20,609 bases of DNA. It comes from a virus. Within the stretch, counting starts at the first letter, position 1. Each line of letters opens with the position of its first letter. The translations under genes and the position numbers were made by a program. Of this stretch, positions 2,183 through 19,503 are shown piece after piece. The notes under the pieces were generated by a model. The model saw only the letters and a program-made list of their open reading frames with translations, made no database searches and was not told the DNA's origin. The DNA lies in IMG/VR virus record IMGVR_UViG_3300046338_000047, positions 1-20,609 of that record; one strand, written 5' to 3'.

Positions 2183-3340
2183 TTGAAGATCTCTAAAAAG
2201 GAAAATAGGGCAAACCTTAATATCATGGCGTTTTACGGTAACGATGATGTTTTTTATTTATCTCGATCTTTTTCTGAGGGTTTTTGTAAGAAACCAAGCA
2301 ATAATAGTAGAAAAGTCAGGAGAATAACTGACCTTATCCTTTTGTTAATTTCCAATGGCCTATACCACTATCCAGAACCTTTCGGTATTTCAATTTCCTC
2401 TGGTGTGACGTTAAAAGGACAACAATACTCATCTTTTGTGCTCAGGAAAGTTGTTAATTACTTAGTGAAAAGGGAGGTTATAAACTATAAGAAAGGTTAT
2501 AGCTTCAAAGGTAATGTACAAAATTCACAAATAGTCCTTGTTCCTTCTTTTCTTAAGAGTTACAAAGAGGAACTAGCTACGGCTAAACAAGATAAAGGAA
2601 CTAGGCGTGTATTTATTAGGGACAAGAACAAAGAGGACATGTTTAAGGAATACAATGACAACACTTTCATGTCTCAGGTTTTTCTTAACAAATACGAGGA
2701 CTTCCTGATAAGTAACAATGTTCTACTAGATGGACTGCCACTTACTGTATCACCTATCTATCGGATTTTTAATGGAGATGAAGATCACGGAGGAAGGCTA
2801 TATGGGAAGTGGACTAACCTACCTAAAGAGACAAGGAAAAGGATTACAATAGGAGGAGAAGGCCTGGCAGAAATTGACTTGAAAGCTTGTACATTGTCAA
2901 TAGCTTGTCATCTTAATGGTATAGAATTAGATAGAGATCCTTACGATTTTGGTGTAAAAAGAGATGTAGCTAAAAAGGCTATGATAATAATGTTTTACTC
3001 TCAGACAGAAATCAGGGCTAAGAGGGCTATAGCAGGGTTAGGAGCAGTTAACGGATTTAAAAAGGGAGAGCTCTTCACCAAGTGTGTTAACCACTTAGAA
3101 GAGAAGGGACTTAAAGGGATAATGATGAAGGGTGAAGGATTGTCCTACATTAAGAAAGAGTCTGATTTTTGTATTGACGTAGTTAATACTTGTATTGAGC
3201 AAAAGGTTGTGGTACTTTCAATACACGATGCTTTCCTGTGCAGGGTTAGCGATGTGGATAAACTGCAAAATAACATAGATATAACCTACTTAAAATGTTT
3301 TAAAAGGCTACCCGAATGTCACAGAATGTTGTTAGATTGA
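2183..3340 (+). CDS. Unrecognised protein with family A polymerase-like (T7 RNAP/Pol I superfamily) palm motifs
   Basis: I do not recognise a named family for this 385-residue protein. It has in order: a basic region and possible winged helix (about 45-115; RRITDLILLLI then VLRKVVNYLVKREVINYKKGY); a GGRLYGKW segment resembling the GRxY strand of T7 RNAP; a motif A-like EIDLKA with Glu230 and Asp232; a motif B-like helix with Arg260, Lys264 and Tyr272, the same R-x3-K-x7-Y spacing as T7 RNAP Arg627/Lys631/Tyr639; and a motif C-like SIHDAF with His348 and Asp349. These are the catalytic and NTP-binding positions of the superfamily, so I infer a small template-directed polymerase or a relic of one. 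No exonuclease domain is seen. The start is TTG at 2183, supported by AGGAGGTG 6 bases upstream. It overlaps the next gene by 25 bases and lies one gene upstream of the true RNA polymerase. Confidence 0.6.
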   Translation: MKISKKENRANLNIMAFYGNDDVFYLSRSFSEGFCKKPSNNSRKVRRITDLILLLISNGLYHYPEPFGISISSGVTLKGQQYSSFVLRKVVNYLVKREVINYKKGYSFKGNVQNSQIVLVPSFLKSYKEELATAKQDKGTRRVFIRDKNKEDMFKEYNDNTFMSQVFLNKYEDFLISNNVLLDGLPLTVSPIYRIFNGDEDHGGRLYGKWTNLPKETRKRITIGGEGLAEIDLKACTLSIACHLNGIELDRDPYDFGVKRDVAKKAMIIMFYSQTEIRAKRAIAGLGAVNGFKKGELFTKCVNHLEEKGLKGIMMKGEGLSYIKKESDFCIDVVNTCIEQKVVVLSIHDAFLCRVSDVDKLQNNIDITYLKCFKRLPECHRMLLD

Positions 3341-3696
3341 AAACTAAAGACAAAAGTACTTTTAAACTGTTCATCCAATATGTCTTCAGGAACTACGGTA
3401 ATAAGGTAGGTATGAGGCTTGAGGACTTGTTAATGTTCATGTGGTATGAGAAAACTTTTCCTAAAGAACTCCTAAATAGGGAAGAACTTTCGAGTATTTA
3501 TTCAGAATTCAAAGAGGATTGTGATAAGCTGACAGATTCTCTTTGTAAGTTTGAGAAGTTTAAAGAGCCTTCACAGAAAGCTTTTGTCGCTACAATATTA
3601 GTGTTAACGGAACTATCACTAGGTTATGGAATATTCCCTAGTGATTATGGCTTCAGTAGCTTCTTTGATTCCCAGGAAAATGTCGATTTCACTTAG
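3316..3696 (+). CDS. Hypothetical protein, 126 residues
   Basis: Not recognised. The predicted protein is mostly helical and charged, with a hydrophobic helix (AFVATILVLTELSLGYG, about 88-104) that is too irregular to call a membrane segment with confidence. The ATG at 3316 lies inside the end of the preceding polymerase-like gene, with an AAAAGG purine run 9 bases upstream, so translation is probably coupled to that gene; a TTG at 3337 is a weaker alternative. It sits between two polymerase-type genes and ends 8 bases before the RNA polymerase start. The arrangement suggests an accessory of transcription or replication, but nothing in the sequence shows this directly. Confidence 0.65.
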   Translation: MSQNVVRLKTKDKSTFKLFIQYVFRNYGNKVGMRLEDLLMFMWYEKTFPKELLNREELSSIYSEFKEDCDKLTDSLCKFEKFKEPSQKAFVATILVLTELSLGYGIFPSDYGFSSFFDSQENVDFT

Positions 3697-3704
3697 GAAA
3701 CAGT

Positions 3705-6008
3705 ATGTCGCCAATCGAAAAACAAATAATTGCTGAGAAAGAGATACTCGATTTAGGTGTATCTAAACTTAAGGAAGTAGCTCTAGAAACTCTCAACGGA
3801 GAGGAAGGGTGGTTACATTCTTATGTCAGGGAATTAGTTTGGCCACTGTCTTTAGTGATACAGGATAGGTTTGAGGCAGAAGATAAAAGAGGAGGGGCAG
3901 GAAGGAAGACCTTATTTTACACCTTACTTAAAGAGGGGTTTGATCCTTTTGCCATATCTGTTTGTGTTCTTAACGCGACAATAAAAAGTGCGATACAAGA
4001 GAGGATACTCTTAACAATCTTATCGGGGGAGATAGGCAATAACATACAGGACTATTTTGGTAAAAAAATAACTAAATTCAATAAAATAGGACTAGGTGTA
4101 ACTTTGCTTCACTCTCTTTCAGTTTCTTCACCAGGACTTTTTGAACTTGAGAAGGATATGGCTACAGGTACGGCAATTTACATGGTACAATTTAAAAGTT
4201 GTAGTAGTTTTAAAACCATAAAAAAATGTATTTCTCTTATATTGGGGAGGTATAGCCCTATGTCTGTTCCTCCTAAAACTTGGACAACAAGTAAAGAGGG
4301 TGGGTACCTATCGAGTGACTTATCTAAAAAAGCAACACTAGTAAGAAAAAGGAGTTCTGAAGCATATGAGAGTGTTTATAGTTATGAAGCAATGCCAGAT
4401 GTCTATGATTCAGTCAACTACATACAATCAGTACCTTACAGAATAAACAGTTTTATTTATGACGCGTTCACAAAAGCAGTGAGAAAGGGATTGAAAGTCA
4501 AAAACCTCCCAGCTTGCAAGCCTCTTACTTTATACTCTTATCCTCTACCAAAAAAACTAACTAAAGATAAGATGACAGAGGAACAAAGAGGTGTTCTTAA
4601 GAAGTGGATGACTGTTAATGGGCACATCAGGAAGGAGAAACAAAGATACCAATCAAAGATGTTCAACATAAAGATCATTAAAGAGGTTTGCGGTAAACTC
4701 CTTAACGAGGGAGACTTCTATTTCCCCCACAACCTAGATTATAGGGGGAGAATATATCCTGTTCCTGTTATTTTTAATCTTCACAGTCTAGACTATGTAA
4801 GGGCTATGTTGTTGTTTTCAGAAGAGAAAGCCCTCAAAAATGAGGAGGGTGTTAAATGGTTAGCAGTCCATGGTGCAAACTGTTTCGGGGTGGATAAAGA
4901 GTCATATGAAGACAGGGAGAGATGGGTAAAAGATAATGAGATGGCTATTCTTTTCGCGTACAGAGAACCTATGGCCTCTACTTTTTGGCACAAAGCTAAA
5001 GACCCTTTTCAGTTTCTAGCGTTTTGTAAAGAGTGGGCAGGGTATTGCAAGTTTGGTTATGGGTACAAAACAGGGCTGCCTATTGGGGTGGATGCAACTT
5101 GTTCTGGTTTGCAACATTACAGCGCTATGTTAAAAGACCCTGTAGGGGCTAGGTATGTTAACATCCTGCCGTCAAATAAACCCCAAGATATATATCAAGA
5201 AGTGGCTAATGTACTTGTCAAAAAACTAGAAGAGCTGGTGGCCTCAGGGGCTATACAAGACTCAGAAGAGGCTAAAAAATGGCTGGCACTAGGGATTAAT
5301 AGGAGTACTACTAAGAGGGTGGTTATGACAACTGTCTACAGTTTAACCCAATACGCATCTAGACAATATATTGAAGAGTACATAATAGACACCAACAAAG
5401 ATGCCTTTATAGATACCTTTAAGGCCAGTTTATGGTTGTCGCCTTTTCTTTGGAAAGCCGTCACAGAGGTGATAAAAGGTGCAAGGGTAGCTATGGATTA
5501 CCTTAAAATGTGTACAAAAGACCTATCTAAGATGCAGGAAGGGATAATATGGCAGGTTCCTAGTGGTTTTATATCCCACCAAAAATGTATGAAGAAAGAG
5601 AAAAAAGAAGTCAAGTGTGATTTTGGAGACAGGAGGATATCTCTCACTATCTATGATGACTCAGACAAGATAAACTCAAGTAAACAAGTTAATGCAGTTT
5701 GCCCTAATATTATCCACAGCCTAGATGCCTGTCATCTAATGATGGTTGCTAATAGGTCTAAAGGGGAGGGTTTGTCAGGGTTCGGTGCTATACATGATTG
5801 TTTTTTTACGCACCCTAGTGATGTAGGTGTTTTACAGAAGGTTATAAGAGAGTCTTTTGTGGACATGTACCATGAAAGTTCTTTTTTAGAAGATTTTAAG
5901 GTCTTCTTAGAATATAAATATAACATAAAACTACCTCAAGTACCTGTAGATGATAGTTTTACCCTCAACCTAAGAGAGGTCTTACAAAGCCCTTATTTTT
6001 TCTGCTAG
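3705..6008 (+). CDS. Single-subunit T7-type DNA-directed RNA polymerase
   Basis: This phage RNA polymerase transcribes phage genes from its own promoters without host sigma factors. Landmarks align with T7 gp1: FPHNLDYRGRIYPV; WLAVHGANCFGVDK; PFQFLAFCKEWAG; motif A with catalytic Asp463 (IGVDATCSGLQH); motif B with Arg533, Lys537 and Tyr545 (NRSTTKRVVMTTVYS); and motif C with His697 and catalytic Asp698 (AIHDCFF). The length of 767 is below T7's 883, with a shorter N-terminal region. In motif B the Tyr-Gly-Ser of T7 is Tyr-Ser-Leu here, so the ribose-discriminating Tyr is kept but the Gly after it is not. The C-terminus ends YFFC, comparable to T7's FAFA foot. GGAAACAG precedes the ATG. The gene sits directly before the packaging genes, so it probably drives the late module. 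Confidence 0.95.
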   Translation: MSPIEKQIIAEKEILDLGVSKLKEVALETLNGEEGWLHSYVRELVWPLSLVIQDRFEAEDKRGGAGRKTLFYTLLKEGFDPFAISVCVLNATIKSAIQERILLTILSGEIGNNIQDYFGKKITKFNKIGLGVTLLHSLSVSSPGLFELEKDMATGTAIYMVQFKSCSSFKTIKKCISLILGRYSPMSVPPKTWTTSKEGGYLSSDLSKKATLVRKRSSEAYESVYSYEAMPDVYDSVNYIQSVPYRINSFIYDAFTKAVRKGLKVKNLPACKPLTLYSYPLPKKLTKDKMTEEQRGVLKKWMTVNGHIRKEKQRYQSKMFNIKIIKEVCGKLLNEGDFYFPHNLDYRGRIYPVPVIFNLHSLDYVRAMLLFSEEKALKNEEGVKWLAVHGANCFGVDKESYEDRERWVKDNEMAILFAYREPMASTFWHKAKDPFQFLAFCKEWAGYCKFGYGYKTGLPIGVDATCSGLQHYSAMLKDPVGARYVNILPSNKPQDIYQEVANVLVKKLEELVASGAIQDSEEAKKWLALGINRSTTKRVVMTTVYSLTQYASRQYIEEYIIDTNKDAFIDTFKASLWLSPFLWKAVTEVIKGARVAMDYLKMCTKDLSKMQEGIIWQVPSGFISHQKCMKKEKKEVKCDFGDRRISLTIYDDSDKINSSKQVNAVCPNIIHSLDACHLMMVANRSKGEGLSGFGAIHDCFFTHPSDVGVLQKVIRESFVDMYHESSFLEDFKVFLEYKYNIKLPQVPVDDSFTLNLREVLQSPYFFC

Positions 6009-6744: not shown

Positions 6745-9294
6745 ATGAGAGACGATGCTTATGATGATAAAGATAAGATTTTCAAGCCTCAGCCAGGCCC
6801 ACAGACAGCCTTTATAGAAAGTAAAGCGGATATTGCCATTTATGGGGGCTCAGCAGGCTCGGGTAAGCTCTTGATTTTAAAGGAGAAAGTACAAACGCCC
6901 ACAGGAGAGGTTGAGATACAAGATGTAAAAGTAGGAGACAAGATCTTTAACCCTGACGGCAACACTCAAGACATTCTTCAAATACACCATCATAAAAATG
7001 TTAATATTTATAAAGTTTCATTTAATGATGGCACATTTGTAAAGGCTTGTGAAGATCATCTATGGAACACTTGGAAGGCAGGCATAAGAACCAACAAAGC
7101 CATAAAACTGATTAAAAGTGGAACCCCTGATCCAGTTTTTAGCCTCTACCCACTGTCAGCTGAGGTAATGCGCACTAAAGATATAAAAGACAACTGGTTG
7201 TCAAAAGGGATAAAACCTCTGATACCTTGCACAAAACCCCTAGACTACAAAATAAAGAGCAACCTACTAAAAATAGACCCTTACCTCCTTGGGATTCTTA
7301 TAGGGGACGGTTGCTTCTCTGATAAGAGTATGGTTAGGAGTAAAAGGATACGTATTTGTAAGCCAGACAAAGAAATCCTAGAATATCCCTCTAAAGTAGG
7401 GTTCTCGACTGAAATTATCCCACCCTCTGGGTCTAAATGCCCTTACGTAGAGTTTAAAAGGGATAAAAAAGACGCTGAACTAAGGGAGGATCTGGTTAAG
7501 TGCGGTTTGTTTGGGACTTATTCACACAGTAAGTTTATACCAGAAGAGTTTTTTACCCGCCCATTAAAAGACAGGTTATCACTGGTTCAAGGGATATTTG
7601 ACACAGACGGCACTTGTGCAGAAAAAGAATCCAACATAACATGGACTACTGTTTCTGAGAAACTGTCTGAAGGGGTTGTAAAATTAGTACAATCTTTAGG
7701 AGGGTGGGTCTCTGTATCTACAGAGGAAGCTGGGGTGAACCCTAACAGGAAACATAAAAGAGATTGCCAAAAACTTTATAAACATTATGTGAAACTCCCT
7801 GTAGAGTGCCCTCCTTTTAGGATGAAGAGAAAACTTTCCAAATACAGGAAACCTACTAGGAGGTTGTATAGAACGATAGTTTCTATCGAGTTTGATCACA
7901 TAGGAGAAGGGAAGTGCCTAACTGTATCTAACCCTAACGGACTTTTCATAACCACAAATTTTATAGTGACCCACAACTCTTTTGCAATTCTTTTGGAATC
8001 TTTGAGGAACATTAATATTCCTAATTTTTACACAATGATTTTGAGAAGAACTTCTAATGAGGTACTAGGCCCAGGATCTTTATGGGATGAATCTCACAAT
8101 ATTTACCCTCATTTTGAAGGGGAGTCTTTTGTTACTAGAAGAACTTGGAAGTTCCCTACTGGGGCTAAAACTCAGTTTGCTTTTATAGAATTAGAGAAGG
8201 ATTTGGAGAGGTTCAAAGGTACACAAGCCCCTCTAATCATGTTTGATGAGTTGACAACATTTTCAGAACGTATGTTTTTCTATATGTTATCAAGGAACAG
8301 GTCAACCACAGGTATCCCTGGCTACATTCGTGCTACTACTAACCCTGAAGAAGGTTGGGTAAGAAAACTCATAGCTTGGTGGTTAGATGACACAGGTTAC
8401 CCTATCCCTTATCGTTCTGGCGTTATCCGTTGGTTTGTAAGGATAGAAGGAGAGATGTTTTGGGCAGACAAGCCGGAGGAACTTATTGAGATGTTCCCTG
8501 GCCAACGAGTCCTACCTAAGTCTTTAACTTTCATCCCGGCTAAGTTGTCAGACAATAAAAAGATGATGGATAAAGACCCAGGGTATGAATCTTCACTGAT
8601 GGCCATGTCAAGGGTAGACCGTCTTAAATTGTTAGACGGCTGTTGGCTAGCACAAGCTACTTTCGGAAGCTATTTTGAGAGGTCTTGGTGTGACCTAGTA
8701 ATGATGCCAGATGAACCTGGCCGATGGGTAAGGTACTGGGATAGAGCTTCTTCTGAGCCGAGTGAAACATACCCAAACCCAGATTATACTGCTGGTGTTT
8801 TGATGGGTATAGGTAAACAAACAGGCTCATTCTACATAAAAGATGTGGTAAGGTTTAGGGCAAAACCAATGAAAGTCCATGCTGAAATCAGAAAAACAGC
8901 TGAAAAGGATAAAAAACTTTACGGCAATGTTCGTGTCGTAATAGAGAAAGATCCAGGACAAGCAGGGGCATCAGATGCTCACTACCTTGTCAACCACCTC
9001 AAAGGGTTTGAAGTCAGAGTAAGAAGTGCTACTAAAGATAAGCTTACACGGTTCCTGCCTTTCTCAGCAGCAGCAGAGAATGGCTTAATTAAGGTTTGCC
9101 GTGGGGAATGGAATGAAGCTTTCTTAGCTGAACTAGAAAGGTTTATAGGTGATGGCGTAGGAAAGGACGATCAAGTGGATGGAGCTAGTGGTGGTTTTAA
9201 TGAGCTACTAAGTAAAGCGTACTCAGCACCTAATCTCGTAATGCCAGACTTATCTTTCAAAGGACTAGGCATCTCATCTAATGTAAGGTTTTAA
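6745..9294 (+). CDS. terL: Terminase large subunit precursor containing an intein
   Basis: This is the ATP-driven motor and headful nuclease that packages phage DNA into proheads. The precursor is 849 residues; removing residues 42-411 (intein) leaves 479, a normal TerL length, and rejoins GGSAGSGK to SFAILL as a perfect Walker A loop. ATPase domain: Walker A at precursor 34-41 plus Ser412; Walker B LIMFDE with Asp501 and Glu502. C-terminal RNase H-like nuclease: Asp666 in RYWDRASSEP, Glu734/Asp736 in VVIEKDPG, and the Asp808-Asp809 pair in DDQVDG, matching the acidic metal-binding set of TerL nucleases. Because the insertion splits the P-loop between Lys41 and Ser412, the unspliced protein cannot be a working ATPase. 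It follows the small terminase by 3 bases and is followed by a terminator-like hairpin. Confidence 0.95.
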   Translation: MRDDAYDDKDKIFKPQPGPQTAFIESKADIAIYGGSAGSGKLLILKEKVQTPTGEVEIQDVKVGDKIFNPDGNTQDILQIHHHKNVNIYKVSFNDGTFVKACEDHLWNTWKAGIRTNKAIKLIKSGTPDPVFSLYPLSAEVMRTKDIKDNWLSKGIKPLIPCTKPLDYKIKSNLLKIDPYLLGILIGDGCFSDKSMVRSKRIRICKPDKEILEYPSKVGFSTEIIPPSGSKCPYVEFKRDKKDAELREDLVKCGLFGTYSHSKFIPEEFFTRPLKDRLSLVQGIFDTDGTCAEKESNITWTTVSEKLSEGVVKLVQSLGGWVSVSTEEAGVNPNRKHKRDCQKLYKHYVKLPVECPPFRMKRKLSKYRKPTRRLYRTIVSIEFDHIGEGKCLTVSNPNGLFITTNFIVTHNSFAILLESLRNINIPNFYTMILRRTSNEVLGPGSLWDESHNIYPHFEGESFVTRRTWKFPTGAKTQFAFIELEKDLERFKGTQAPLIMFDELTTFSERMFFYMLSRNRSTTGIPGYIRATTNPEEGWVRKLIAWWLDDTGYPIPYRSGVIRWFVRIEGEMFWADKPEELIEMFPGQRVLPKSLTFIPAKLSDNKKMMDKDPGYESSLMAMSRVDRLKLLDGCWLAQATFGSYFERSWCDLVMMPDEPGRWVRYWDRASSEPSETYPNPDYTAGVLMGIGKQTGSFYIKDVVRFRAKPMKVHAEIRKTAEKDKKLYGNVRVVIEKDPGQAGASDAHYLVNHLKGFEVRVRSATKDKLTRFLPFSAAAENGLIKVCRGEWNEAFLAELERFIGDGVGKDDQVDGASGGFNELLSKAYSAPNLVMPDLSFKGLGISSNVRF
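6868..7977 (+). mobile_element. Class 3-type intein with LAGLIDADG homing endonuclease inside terL
   Basis: This 370-residue in-frame insertion runs from Leu42 to Asn411 of the precursor; the next extein residue is Ser412. It has block A-like KVGDKIF, block B ending CEDHLW (His105, Trp107), two LAGLIDADG motifs (LLGILIGDG with Asp188; LVQGIFDTDG with Asp286/Asp288), block F GKCLTV (Cys391) and block G FIVTHN followed by Ser. Standard inteins begin with Cys, Ser or Ala; here the first residue is Leu. The Trp two residues after the block B His, Cys in block F and Thr just before His-Asn form the WCT signature of class 3 inteins, which splice through the block F Cys. Intein numbering: Leu1, Trp66, Cys350, Thr368, Asn370. 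The block B Thr usually three before His is Cys102. Both endonuclease motifs keep their acidic residues, so homing may be active. Confidence 0.9.
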
Positions 9295-15569: not shown

Positions 15570-16577
15570 ATGGCCGATATAGATCAAGTCATTACAGTCA
15601 ATATCTCTAGGGAAACTTCTGCCGTTAGTCAAGTAGGCTTCGGTACAGGTATGTTCCTAGGTGATCATAGACGTTTTATCGAAAGATACAAATCTTATAA
15701 AAGTGCCGCAGAAGTATTAGCAGATGGTTTTGCATCAACAGATGCAGAGTACATTGTTGCTACTAAATTCTTCGGACAAGAACTTAAGCCAACGAAACTA
15801 GCTATTGGCCGCAGAAAGGCTGTTGATATTGCTACGTTAACTTTCTCAGCAGCAGTTTCAGGAACATCTTATAGCGTCACTGTTAATGGTGTTGTACTGA
15901 GTTATACTGCTGCTGGCATCATGACAGCCATTGCTGTTGCTGCTGCTTTTGAAACAGCTAATGCTGCTGGGTTTGTCACTGCTGGTATTACGTTCAGTGA
16001 TGCTGCTGCTGATGGCACTGCTACCATTACACCTACTGTTGCTGCTACACCTATTTCAATAGTTGGTGAGACATCTACTATTGTTATTGTAAACACGTAC
16101 ACAGAAACATTGACAGATGCACTAGCTGCTGTTGCTGACGAAAACTCAGACTTCTTTGTAGTTATGGCTAAGTCACACATCAAAGCTGACCAACTTGAGT
16201 TGGCAACGGTTGTTGAGTCTATGGACAGAATATATGTTACATCATCTTCTGATGTTAACATTAAAAACCAATCAGCTGTAGTTGATACTACATCTATTGC
16301 AAGGGCCTTGAAAGATGGCTCTTACAACAATACCGCTCTTATGTATTCAGCTGTAGCTAACAGCCAATACCCTGAAGCAGCTTTTGTCGGCTATAACCTA
16401 AGCTACCAACCTGGTGAAAATACCTGGAAGTTTAAAACCCTTTCTGGAATCACTGTTGACAGTTTAACAACCACACAGATCAACAACATTAAAGCTAAAT
16501 ACTGTAACTACTACACCAACATTCGTAATATTAATATTACATCTGAAGGCGTTGTGGCATCAGGTGAATTTATCGAT
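15570..16577 (+). CDS. DUF3383 tail protein (sheath-like), exon 1
   Basis: This is the first 336 residues of a DUF3383-family tail protein, opening DIDQVITVNISRETSAVSQVGFGTGMFLGDHRRF. DUF3383 proteins occur with DUF3277 tubes and are regarded as sheath-like, which would mean a contractile tail; I take this as likely, not certain. An Ala/Thr/Val-rich stretch (about 88-170) looks like an inserted beta domain. The coding sequence is interrupted after GEFID by a group I intron: if unspliced, the frame runs only five codons further (YQLVA) to TAA at 16593-16595. Joining base 16577 to 17743 gives GEFID-IIVGISWFKARLAERLFNLL, the expected DUF3383 continuation, and a 439-residue product. CGAGGT precedes the ATG. 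Confidence 0.88.
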
Positions 16578-17742
16578 TATCAATTAGTCGCCTAACTTAG
16601 TAATAGGTTAGTGAAAACTCTTTTAATTGCTGGAAACCCGCGAAAAAATATTAACTACAACGTAAAGATGAAACAAACTTAAGCGTGAATGTATGAAAAT
16701 AATATTTTATGTGGCAATCAGCAGCCAAGCCTCGAAGAGAGGAAGGTTCATCGACTATCCCGTAACGGGAGTAGTACCAAGTGGTACGAAATGGAGAGCA
16801 ACATAGCAGGTAAAGCTGATGTTGAAGATATAGTCAAGTCTTCATGGAAACATGAAGTAGTTTAGGATCAGGAAATGAATTACGAAAAACTTTATTACCA
16901 CTTTATTGAGAAATACAAGAGTCAAATAATAGATGAATCAGTTTACACTGAGAGACATCATATTATCCCGCGCCATGCAGGGGGCGGTGACTCACAAGAG
17001 AATTTAATCACATTAACATACAAACAGCATAGGTTTATCCATAAGCTGAGATACAAAGCTTTTAAGCTGATAGGAGATTTTATTTCCTATAGGCTTATGT
17101 ACGGGATACCACCTCACAAAAAGCAATTTTTATGCTCTGAAGCAGGCAAAATAGGCGGCAAAAAGAACAGAGAGTCAGGGCACATGTCTTCTGTAGGAAA
17201 GGTGTTTGGGCCTATCCACGGCAGAAAGAATGTTGAAAACGGAAATTTAGATAAGATCAGGCATTTGGCTAATAATAATGTGCAAAGGGCCAAAGTAAAA
17301 CAATTAGGCCTATATAATGTTAAGTCAGGGCAATTGGCAAAGATTGCCAAACTTGGCTGGGTAGCTAAGTGGTCTCAAAAGGCCAAAAGTAAGAAATCAA
17401 TAGAGAGTAAAGAAAAGTATGCTGACCCTGCAAATAAGCAGCAGCTTTTTAAGATGTCCCACCTTTCTGCTAAAAAGAAAATAGCAGAAGCTGAGGAAAG
17501 AAGTAAAGTAATTATAGATAAAGCAGAACGCAATAGTGGTTTTCTAGAAAAGAAATCTACTAGGAGTTTTTATTTATTCATTTCACCTGAAGGTTTAGTA
17601 TTTGAAAGCCCAATTTTTGCTGCAAAATATTACGGTAACGTAAGTTGTAAAGTAGTAGAAGGGTGGTGCAAGAGGTTCAAATACGGCTGGAAGGTCATCC
17701 CAAAAACAACACAGATATAACGTACCTGTGTGAATATTAACG
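16578..17742 (+). mobile_element. Group I intron encoding an HNH endonuclease
   Basis: A 1165-base intron. P1: CGATTA (16574-16579) pairs with TAGTCG (16585-16590) around TCAAT, placing the exon's last U (16577) opposite G16587, the required U-G pair. P7: GACTAT (16753-16758) pairs with ATAGTC (16830-16835). P8: CCCG-TAA-CGGG follows P7's first strand, then GTACC-AAGT-GGTAC. Further conserved elements: TTGCTGGAAACCCGC (P4-P5 region) and CAGCAGCCAAG/GAAGGTTCATCGACTA (P6-P7). P9: CTTCATG-GAAA-CATGAAG (16840-16857). The last intron base is G (17742). The endonuclease gene lies after P9, so the catalytic core is intact. Splicing restores the DUF3383 frame exactly. Confidence 0.92.
16875..17720 (+). 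CDS. Intron-encoded HNH homing endonuclease
   Basis: This 281-residue enzyme presumably cuts intronless alleles of the tail gene so that the intron is copied in. The HNH domain is at about 24-57: TERHHIIPRHAGGGDSQENLITLTYKQHRFIH, with His28-His29, Asn43 and His52/His56 as the ββα-metal residues. A Lys/Gly-rich middle (about 90-200, repeated short segments such as EAGKIGGKKNRESGHMSS and SGQLAKIAKLGW) resembles NUMOD-type DNA-binding modules. A C-terminal segment (SFYLFISPEGLVFESPIFAAKYYGNVSCKVVEGWCKRFKYGW) has the usual ending of intron endonucleases. AGGATCAGGA precedes the ATG. It ends 22 bases before the 3' splice site. Confidence 0.9.
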   Translation: MNYEKLYYHFIEKYKSQIIDESVYTERHHIIPRHAGGGDSQENLITLTYKQHRFIHKLRYKAFKLIGDFISYRLMYGIPPHKKQFLCSEAGKIGGKKNRESGHMSSVGKVFGPIHGRKNVENGNLDKIRHLANNNVQRAKVKQLGLYNVKSGQLAKIAKLGWVAKWSQKAKSKKSIESKEKYADPANKQQLFKMSHLSAKKKIAEAEERSKVIIDKAERNSGFLEKKSTRSFYLFISPEGLVFESPIFAAKYYGNVSCKVVEGWCKRFKYGWKVIPKTTQI

Positions 17743-18054
17743 ATTATTGTAGGAATTTCATGGTTTAAGGCTCGTTTAGCTGAAAGATTGTTCAACCTAT
17801 TGATTAACGCACCTAAAATTCCTTATACCGCTGCTGGATTGGCTGCTGTACAAGCAGAAGTTCTTGGCCAACGTCAAGAGGGTATTGCATCTGGTTTCCT
17901 ATCAGGAAGCAAGTCAGATTTAACAATAGTACCTAACATGAAAGATGTCTCATTTGCTGATAAAGCTACGAGAACATTAAACAATGTTAAGTTTGAATAC
18001 AAATTAGCAGGCGCTGTACATTTTATCAATGTAGCCGGATCAGTTGTACTTTAA
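17743..18054 (+). CDS. DUF3383 tail protein (sheath-like), exon 2
   Basis: This gives the last 103 residues of the sheath-like protein, beginning IIVGISWFKARLAERLFNLLINAPKIPYT and ending LNNVKFEYKLAGAVHFINVAGSVVL. It has no start site of its own: the frame is open back to the splice junction and the first residues belong to the conserved DUF3383 C-terminal segment (I-x-W-x-K-A-R ... FNLL-x-N-x-P-K-IPYT). The stop is 12 bases before the tube gene. It is read only after intron removal. Confidence 0.88.
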   Translation: MIVGISWFKARLAERLFNLLINAPKIPYTAAGLAAVQAEVLGQRQEGIASGFLSGSKSDLTIVPNMKDVSFADKATRTLNNVKFEYKLAGAVHFINVAGSVVL

Positions 18055-18873: not shown

Positions 18874-19503
18874 ATGATTTTTCCTTTTAAAATAGAATAC
18901 GAAGGGTATTTAACACAATCAAAACTTCTGGGGATCTTAAAACAAATACCAGAAATAACATTCCTTGGGGAGGAGGTTAAAGTTAGCCCTAAGTCCAGGA
19001 GGAGATGGGACATGTTGTTTAAGAAAGGTGAACAGGTATTAGCAATAGAGTTTGATGGGGACAGTCACTACCAAAACTCATTAGTATCTAAATCAGACAA
19101 AGAGAAGAACAAAGAAGCAGAGTCACAAGGGATAACAGTGGTTAGGGTTCCTTTCTTTATACAACTGGACAGTGATGTTTTTGAAATACTTTTTGGTTTC
19201 AGGCCTTCTGTTGAGATATTGAACAATTTTCCTAGTGGTTTCATAACAACAAAAACATTCCCTTGTTCTTTCGGTGATATAGGCATTTCTAGACTTTTCC
19301 ATGAAGTTAAAGACATGCCAGAAAAAACAAAGAAAGAGGTAGTGCAGAGTTTGATTGATAGGTCTTTAGTCTATGGAGAGGAATATGTGTGGCCCCCTTC
19401 CTTTAAAAGGACAGCGATAGGGATAATTGAGGAGTTCGGAGGAGAAGAAAAGGATTATTCCTTAAAAGAAGACCTTGACATTTTCTTCAATGTACTACAA
19501 TAG
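18874..19503 (+). CDS. Vsr/DUF559-like PD-(D/E)XK nuclease, possibly a free-standing homing endonuclease
   Basis: This 209-residue protein has RRRWDMLF (Asp46), then LAIEFDGDSHY (Glu59, Asp61, His65), then SDKEKNKEAESQGITVVRVPFF, the order of landmarks seen in very short patch repair-like and DUF559-type nucleases: acidic residue, hydrophobic strand with E-x-D-G-x-x-H, then D-x4-x-L/A-x-x-x-G-h-x-V-h-R. The nuclease fold fills residues 30-105; the C-terminal half is unrecognised and may bind DNA. It has its own consensus promoter and AAAGAGGCG ribosome site and interrupts an otherwise ordinary tail operon between the tube and chaperone genes. That setting suits a free-standing homing endonuclease or a moron-type accessory gene. 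The substrate is unknown. Confidence 0.75.
   Translation: MIFPFKIEYEGYLTQSKLLGILKQIPEITFLGEEVKVSPKSRRRWDMLFKKGEQVLAIEFDGDSHYQNSLVSKSDKEKNKEAESQGITVVRVPFFIQLDSDVFEILFGFRPSVEILNNFPSGFITTKTFPCSFGDIGISRLFHEVKDMPEKTKKEVVQSLIDRSLVYGEEYVWPPSFKRTAIGIIEEFGGEEKDYSLKEDLDIFFNVLQ

Follow-up and report, generated by a model that had tools for sequence, protein, structure and literature searches.

A small palm-domain polymerase homologue of the divPolA2 group encoded near a T7-like RNA polymerase in a phage genome

What kind of protein is encoded by a 385-codon gene that carries polymerase-like motifs and lies next but one to the gene for a T7-like RNA polymerase (RNAP)? The gene occurs in a viral sequence of 20,609 nucleotides (IMG/VR record IMGVR_UViG_3300046338_000047, positions 1 to 20,609), which we analyzed as a whole and refer to as the window. 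A preliminary description, based on the letters alone, had proposed a small member of the T7 RNAP/Pol I superfamily and knew of no function described for such a protein. The observation itself was confirmed and its interpretation partly supported: superfamily membership holds, while such proteins are already in print as divPolA2 (Yutin et al. 2024, PMC11348598) and probably as TV-Pol (Iyer, Abhiman and Aravind 2008, PMC2579912).

Gene, family and conservation

The gene is intact at window positions 2183-3340 on the (+) strand, with zero internal stops based on the open reading frame (ORF) listing and translation. Its features and close neighbors are given below in window coordinates.

430-2118, (+): ribonucleotide reductase (RNR) large subunit, upstream neighbor (PF02867, E 1.1e-66)
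2127-2154, no strand: perfect 10-bp inverted repeat with an 8-base loop and without a T-run, between the RNR and polymerase genes
2170-2176, (+): Shine-Dalgarno sequence AGGAGGT, perfect, 6 bases upstream of the TTG start
2183-3340, (+): small palm-domain polymerase homologue, PHROG 4756/divPolA2 family, 385 aa, TTG start (phrog_4756 E 1.7e-35; predicted structure)
2306-2539, (+): probable N-terminal winged-helix domain, residues ~42-119 (profile matches to a PadR-type regulator; model of residues 1-141)
2789-2806, (+): GGRLYG strand with invariant Arg205, residues 203-208, preceding motif A (model strand 203-207)
2870-2893, (+): motif A with E230, catalytic D232 and gate position T237 (gate is His in 60 of 67 rows)
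2936-2998, (+): fingers with D252, Y254 and motif B, R260-x3-K264-x7-Y272 (register with phage PolA from a weak alignment)
3137-3172, (+): helix preceding motif C, residues 319-330; family signature G-x2-LQ-x2-DSDIA, with Y322, I323 and E326 in the window protein
3215-3232, (+): motif C strand and turn, residues 345-350, with H348-D349 (second catalytic Asp; 67 of 67 rows, partly by construction, and 11 of 11)
3316-3696, (+): 126-aa ORF with a 25-base overlap with the polymerase gene (only family matches E 0.12 or weaker)
3705-6008, (+): T7-like RNAP of 767 aa, two genes downstream within this tight cluster (PF00940 E 1.1e-98; phrog_414 E 4.7e-196)

D232, R260, K264, Y272, H348-D349 and GGRLYG (203-208) lie in the translation where the preliminary description had placed them. 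The GC content of the gene (0.361) and its GC3 (0.348) are inside the range of six neighbors (0.35-0.41 and 0.31-0.37), giving no sign of a recent foreign insertion.

General domain models gave little. A Pfam scan of the window protein returned no model at its cut-off and two sub-threshold matches of its own; PF00940 (RNA_pol) scored 10.7 bits against a gathering score of 22, and the weak matches to RNAP models lay over motif C (PF00940, E 0.22; phrog_414, E 0.019). PF00476 (DNA_pol_A) gave no match at a maximum E of 10, a setting at which HMMER filters drop most matches above 0.1. No exonuclease family in Pfam matched the 385 residues, in agreement with the preliminary description. NCBIfam up to E 10 produced zero matches among 11 members (the window protein and ten homologues), and Pfam matches among the 11, 24 and 67 members scanned were sporadic, with at most 4 members per family shown. 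The lowest Pfam E value, 3.5e-5 for Skp1_POZ in one of 11 members (its cut-off not shown), was taken as chance, and a defense gene was rejected, with 0 of 24 members matching PADLOC up to E 1.

The informative match was to PHROG 4756, annotated as 'unknown function' (E 1.7e-35). Because the same profile matches AUR84708 (E 1.5e-93), the protein of Vibrio phage 1.063.O that was published as the divPolA2 exemplar (25469-26761 of MG592441.1), the window protein can be assigned to divPolA2, and we regard its place in this group, and in the palm/fingers superfamily, as almost certain. The barbavirus protein Barba19A also matched (E 1.7e-67). Among 14 control genomes, phrog_4756 had matches in none at E 0.001 and in three at E 10.

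Searches by tblastn with the window protein recovered 48 phage records at E 0.01, and homologues used as queries recovered 122 (E 0.01) and 238 (E 0.001). Many phages of Vibrio, Aeromonas and Rheinheimera carry the family, and ICP1 has one copy; two PHROG 4756 copies were present in 8 of 23 phage records, all of them picked as family holders (two others list two pieces of one ORF). A family match at E 0.001 was found in 13 of 190 genomes sampled from the class of a Pelagibius genome (seed included), with weak or partial matches in G078, G028, G162 and G183. Scans of viral contigs with single proteins were unproductive: the KASIA and Klebsiella homologues found zero relatives, and the window protein matched its own contig alone. 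When contigs were scanned with a degenerate DNA pattern encoding L-Q-[KR]-x-D-S-D-I...HDS, it matched 6 times in viral and 20 times in genome contigs, all 26 in ORFs with family motifs (judged by eye, as far as the frames reach), and patterns from an alignment of these 26 matched 159 stretches, of which 71 encode relatives and were added as viral loci.

Conservation was assessed in two alignments. The smaller comprised the window protein and ten phage homologues from tblastn (20-24% identity; L005 and L007 are near-copies), and the larger (A4) comprised the window protein and 66 of 97 loci, the other 31 having been left out by eye, without a computed cut-off, as near-copies, second matches per contig, fragments or, in one case, an over-long frame. 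R205, R218, D232, R260, K264, H348 and D349 are identical in 11 of 11 rows, with G204 in 10 of 11 and E230 in 7 of 11. In the 67 rows, G204, R205, R218, E230, D232, R260, K264, H348 and D349 are invariant and D252 is present in 63; the constancy of H348-D349 and of the DSDI helix there is partly built in, because both scans used DSDI/HDS stretches, while the 11-row set was found independently. D232, K264 and D349, three of the four residues on which the preliminary description had staked its case, are thus conserved in every row of both alignments. The fourth, Tyr272, is not: Asn takes its place in 65 of 67 and 9 of 11 rows.

As described by Yutin et al., divPolA2 proteins occur in barbaviruses, number up to two or three per genome in other phages and accompany a regular DNA polymerase, and both a repair DNA polymerase and an RNA polymerase are left open as their role (PMC11348598). 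The window protein resembles them in its PHROG 4756 match, its palm with catalytic residues, its lack of an exonuclease, its extra N-terminal domain and the regular DNA polymerase (PolA) in the same phage; it differs in being shorter (385 aa), in having the longest end branch and a T237/Y272 pocket, and in its near neighbor, the phage RNAP. The term 'TV-Pol' appears once in the main text of that report, in the Background (PMC11348598). TV-Pols, for which primase-polymerase activity was proposed, were defined by a hairpin Arg, two Asp, a fingers Asp with RxxxK and a two-helix thumb; a subset has an N-terminal domain predicted to be all-helical, and Microcystis phage LMM01 was said to carry a TV-Pol (PMC2579912). 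The window protein shares the conserved Arg (R205, which we infer to be the hairpin Arg from its place before motif A), the two Asp, the fingers Asp with RxxxK and the absence of a nuclease fusion. Relatives in bacteria lie near integrases and resolvases, as reported for TV-Pols (PMC2579912): among 120 neighbor ORFs (at least 90 aa) of 20 chromosomal copies, 8 were Phage_integrase and 6 Resolvase, the top two of 103 families, and a plasmid copy adjoins an IS21 element and a methyltransferase/helicase cluster. Unlike TV-Pols, the window protein probably has a winged helix rather than an all-helical N-terminal domain, and no D5-type helicase was found beside its gene; LMM01 gave zero matches to phrog_4756 and to the 67-row profile. 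The divPolA2 proteins and the TV-Pols of mobile elements are probably one family.

Predicted structure and nucleotide pocket

An AlphaFold2 model built on the 67-row alignment (pLDDT 84.9, pTM 0.76) has the palm and fingers that the preliminary description had led one to expect. The best 50 of 699 Foldseek matches (E up to 10) were family A DNA polymerases, one titled only T7 replisome, with a best E of 2.5e-6; TM-scores among these 50 were low (0.28-0.39 on the query) and rmsd values large. When this same list was re-scored with VIA-align 2, apicoplast DNA polymerase 5dkt reached Z 14.3 (rmsd 3.5 over 222 residues), followed by T7 DNA polymerase 1tk8 (13.8), yeast mitochondrial RNAP 6ymw (13.7) and T7 RNAP 1h38 (13.6). 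These scores place the protein in the T7 RNAP/Pol I superfamily; being ties, they mean that the structure alone cannot tell a DNA from an RNA polymerase. R205 lies within a strand of the model, which also has one long helix (159-177) plus shorter helices; the TV-Pol thumb is described as two antiparallel coiled-coil helices.

The N-terminal domain is likely a winged helix, as had been suspected. The best match of the 67-row profile in the Protein Data Bank (PDB) was N-terminal, to the PadR-type predicted transcriptional regulator 1xma (E 0.0015), with PadR 9qbc next (0.56). The N-terminal alignment alone (A6) matched 1xma (E 0.0007), 6sbs (0.04) and 12 weaker entries, 9 of the 14 being named regulators. 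The profile matches include PadR/MarR-type regulators, which are winged helices, and Pfam gave weak, scattered helix-turn-helix matches in this part. A separate model of residues 1-141 (pLDDT 79.9) had zero Foldseek matches at E 0.001 or better, and its Z scores were borderline (6.3-7.0), to ribosomal protein eS19, PadR LmrR and HxlR regulators, with the T7 RNAP N-terminal part at 6.6. Because the fold matches are borderline, the assignment draws mainly on the profile matches, among which 1xma alone falls below E 0.01. Yutin et al. reported finding no similarity for the divPolA2 N-terminal domain (PMC11348598).

D232 has its counterpart in D487 of the phage's own PolA and D463 of its RNAP. The register of the other pocket positions comes from motif spacing and an hhalign alignment with PolAs, itself non-significant (E 0.48), and their equivalence to T7 RNAP and Pol I numbering is in part our assumption. 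Against T7-like RNAPs the family aligned at E 6e-4 (probability 28%) over motif C only; PolAs and RNAPs, known relatives, aligned with each other at E 0.065, showing how little power the method has at such distance. Position +5 of motif A (Pol I E710) is Glu in 5 of 5 PolAs, Gly in 10 of 10 RNAPs and His in 60 of 67 family rows (Gln in 5, Met in 1), with Thr237 in the window protein. At motif B +8 (Pol I F762), the PolAs have Tyr (5/5), the RNAPs Met (10/10), the family Asn or Leu (60/67) and the window protein Ile268. The Tyr639/Y766 place (motif B +12) is Tyr in PolAs and RNAPs and Asn in 65 of 67 family rows; Tyr272 of the window protein is one of the Tyr found in 2 of 67.

Neither known signature is present in the window protein: it lacks the Gly at motif A +5 that, with Tyr at motif B +12, is invariant in the 10 T7-like RNAPs, and it has Thr237 and Ile268 where family A DNA polymerases have Glu and Tyr/Phe (motif A +5 and motif B +8). 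The Tyr at 'T7 spacing', once put forward as a hallmark, proved to be no family feature; because Tyr is also invariant in all five PolAs, it fails to separate RNA from DNA enzymes. Judged from the aligned residues, the family has its own pocket signature, and in this respect the window protein is an outlier among its relatives.

The window protein departs from the 67 rows at the nearly fixed positions T237, Y272, Y322, I323 and A350 (at 323, Gln in 51 rows and Met in 14). Its end branch, 1.72, is the longest in an 83-row tree; it groups on the side of the named phages, and its exact place is unsure because the branches have SH-aLRT values of 84-91%, below the 95% mark. The long branch and these departures may reflect a changed or relaxed function. 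The family was already known from sequence, and the protein is a divergent new addition to it. Three points appear to be new: the winged helix, the link between divPolA2 and proteins of bacterial mobile elements, and a pocket that fits neither the DNA nor the RNA polymerase pattern.

Genomic setting and proposed function

The window coincides with part of a 68-kb contig of the same phage, with one mismatch over the first 16.5 kb. This contig encodes a 736-aa family A DNA polymerase (PF00476, E 1.5e-22) and a 585-aa Toprim-DnaB primase-helicase. Also encoded there are RuvC, PhoH, a helicase resembling RecD, both subunits of RNR, a dNMP kinase and a protein whose 5'-3' exonuclease match is sub-threshold; PHROG 4756 has one match on the contig. 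The small polymerase is the phage's third member of the polymerase superfamily. Because the phage has its own PolA, primase-helicase and RNAP, the small protein is accessory and hardly the replicase.

The 126-aa ORF product could possibly act with the polymerase, but as a conserved partner it was rejected, since among fetched loci it occurs only in copies of the same phage. A fixed link to the T7-like RNAP was likewise rejected as a rule: in 20 other contigs that encode a related RNAP, the polymerase gene was absent from the flanking sequence covered, which was short or missing in some; in Shewanella phage KASIA, the family gene and the RNAP gene are ~2.2 kb apart. A Pfam scan of five window proteins found no recombinase or D5 helicase. 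The core pattern of the inverted repeat at 2127-2154 occurs once in the 68-kb relative, and the hairpin could possibly be a processing site or regulator.

The closest biochemical precedent is the SCCmec polymerase CCPol, classed as a TV-Pol, which extends primers and, with its partner MP, primes de novo with dNTPs; to its authors' knowledge in 2020, no other TV-Pol had been characterized (Bebel et al. 2020, PMC7581432). PolA-SSB pairs extend the case of the CCPol-MP primase (Rice 2023, PMC10061031). Like these, the window protein is a catalytic subunit of small size and family A type that comes from mobile DNA. CCPol-MP uses a separate OB-fold partner; the 126-aa ORF next to the window gene had family matches of E 0.12 at best. 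CCPol is a distant branch from the window family and keeps E710 and F762, which in Pol I act against ribonucleotides (PMC7581432), where the window family has His and Asn/Leu. Bacterial family A polymerases have been grouped as PolA1-PolA3 and PolA1-like (PMC12926913).

The window protein shares with T7-like RNAPs (PF00940) the palm/fingers fold and motifs A, B and C in order, but it is below the Pfam cut-off, half the size and has a gate residue other than Gly. RNAP2 of phage N4 (6dt7_B, 404 aa) is also a small catalytic subunit with motifs B and C in register. This enzyme works with RNAP1, and no RNAP1-like partner was seen for the window protein; kinship was rejected, as RNAP2 was the only PDB match of the first profile at E 0.63 and is missing from the three hits of the larger profile.

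Computation recovers the fold of palm and fingers, the two aspartates that bind metal, Arg205 and R260-x3-K264, with no recognizable nuclease domain and probably a winged helix at the N terminus. The gene thus encodes a minimal polymerase of the family A/T7 RNAP superfamily, in the divPolA2 group, with its catalytic residues retained. We put at about even the chance that it acts in this phage as an accessory primase-polymerase. Its winged helix would hold a single-stranded or partly opened DNA template, in the part played by the SSB-like MP of the CCPol-MP primase, and its palm would join nucleotides, either dNTPs or NTPs, by a two-metal mechanism. Lacking proofreading, it would start short chains or extend ends, and its role would be to supply primers, aid restart or fill gaps where DNA is damaged or recombining, rather than to act as the replicase. 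Several points speak against this reading: no activity of a member of this branch turned up in print; CCPol is distant, and the window family appears to lack its Pol I gate residues; the window protein has a long end branch and departs at nearly fixed positions; the profile-profile comparison with PolA is non-significant; no D5-type helicase was found next to the gene, and no OB-fold partner was recognized; and the gene was absent from the covered flanks of the 20 other contigs with a related RNAP. A bolder form, which we advance only tentatively, is a single-chain polymerase in which a built-in winged helix replaces the SSB partner, and whose pocket is unlike that of DNA and of RNA polymerases (by alignment, a His gate with Asn in the family, a Thr gate with Tyr in this phage). 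It would start chains at chosen sites and form a third primase class beside the Toprim primase, with the pocket of this phage shifted towards ribonucleotides.

A specialized DNA-dependent RNA polymerase working beside the T7-like RNAP, for example on short transcripts or RNA primers from sites recognized by the winged helix, is possible but doubtful. The tied Z scores for T7 and mitochondrial RNAPs would suit it, as would the hhalign result over motif C (E 6e-4, probability 28%, compared with 0.48 for PolAs), the weak PF00940 and phrog_414 matches, the N-terminal similarity to T7 RNAP, which ties with the winged-helix rows, and the position of the gene, two ahead of that for the RNAP; such a role is among those left open by Yutin et al. 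(PMC11348598). Pocket residues cut both ways, as the small Thr237 stands where RNAPs have Gly and PolAs Glu, and Tyr272 is common to RNAPs, but the family gate is a bulky His, Asn replaces the Tyr in nearly all rows and the same Tyr is invariant in PolAs. The best 50 of 699 Foldseek matches, all DNA polymerases, also argue against it.

Extension of existing primers only, by a DNA polymerase associated with repair or recombination, seems unlikely. It would fit the company of a regular DNA polymerase, reported for divPolA2 (PMC11348598) and found in this phage, the behavior of CCPol, which without MP only extends primers (PMC7581432, PMC10061031), and the lack of a recognized proofreading domain. 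The neighbors, however, are RNR and RNAP with no repair gene adjoining, and the fused winged helix suggests that the protein binds its own template. Loss of polymerase activity in this phage, leaving a DNA-binding or RNAP-associated regulator, is more improbable still. Its long branch, the changes at several near-fixed positions, including loss of the LQ pair, and the clustering with RNAP would be expected of such a protein, but all nine invariant residues, metal ligands included, are kept, and the frame is open behind a strong ribosome site. The option of an evolved regulator, raised in the preliminary description, is therefore disfavored, because the catalytic residues are retained.

Should the accessory primase-polymerase start DNA or RNA chains unaided, it would be a primase without kinship to DnaG or the archaeo-eukaryotic families, and it would model the minimal ancestor from which Pol I and T7 RNAP descend. 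Members occur in many phages and in bacterial mobile islands, and we found no member of the divPolA2 branch with a tested function in the open-access literature; the probable winged helix, the junction between divPolA2 and mobile elements and the pocket residues render the predicted function directly testable.

Other family loci and features of the window

Among 119 family loci, some of them duplicates, 8 from IMG/VR have the family gene at most ~5 kb from an oppositely oriented gene resembling a Toprim-DnaB primase-helicase (L070, L078, L118, L122, L126, L128, L129 and L134, a fragment in L134), a possible link to a replication module. One metagenome-assembled Flavobacteriaceae genome (G017, behind locus L050) has 8 places matching PHROG 4756, perhaps binned phage contigs.

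Elsewhere in the window, a group I intron at 16568-16857 (Rfam RF00028, 98 bits) lies inside an insertion (16554-17760) that splits the gene at 15570-18054, and the ORF behind it (16875-17720) has the look of a homing endonuclease by eye. At this site the 68-kb contig has an uninterrupted 439-aa frame without an Rfam match, and ~42 bases at the insertion point differ between contig and window, as co-conversion would give. By eye, the 849-aa frame of the terminase large subunit (6745-9294) contains an apparent intein near the Walker A region (GSGK ... THN-S); the KASIA terminase gene is likewise made up of joined segments and has an HNH ORF within it. A 209-aa protein at 18874-19503 has weak, sub-threshold similarity to MTES_1575/DUF559-type endonucleases and is perhaps a free-standing endonuclease.
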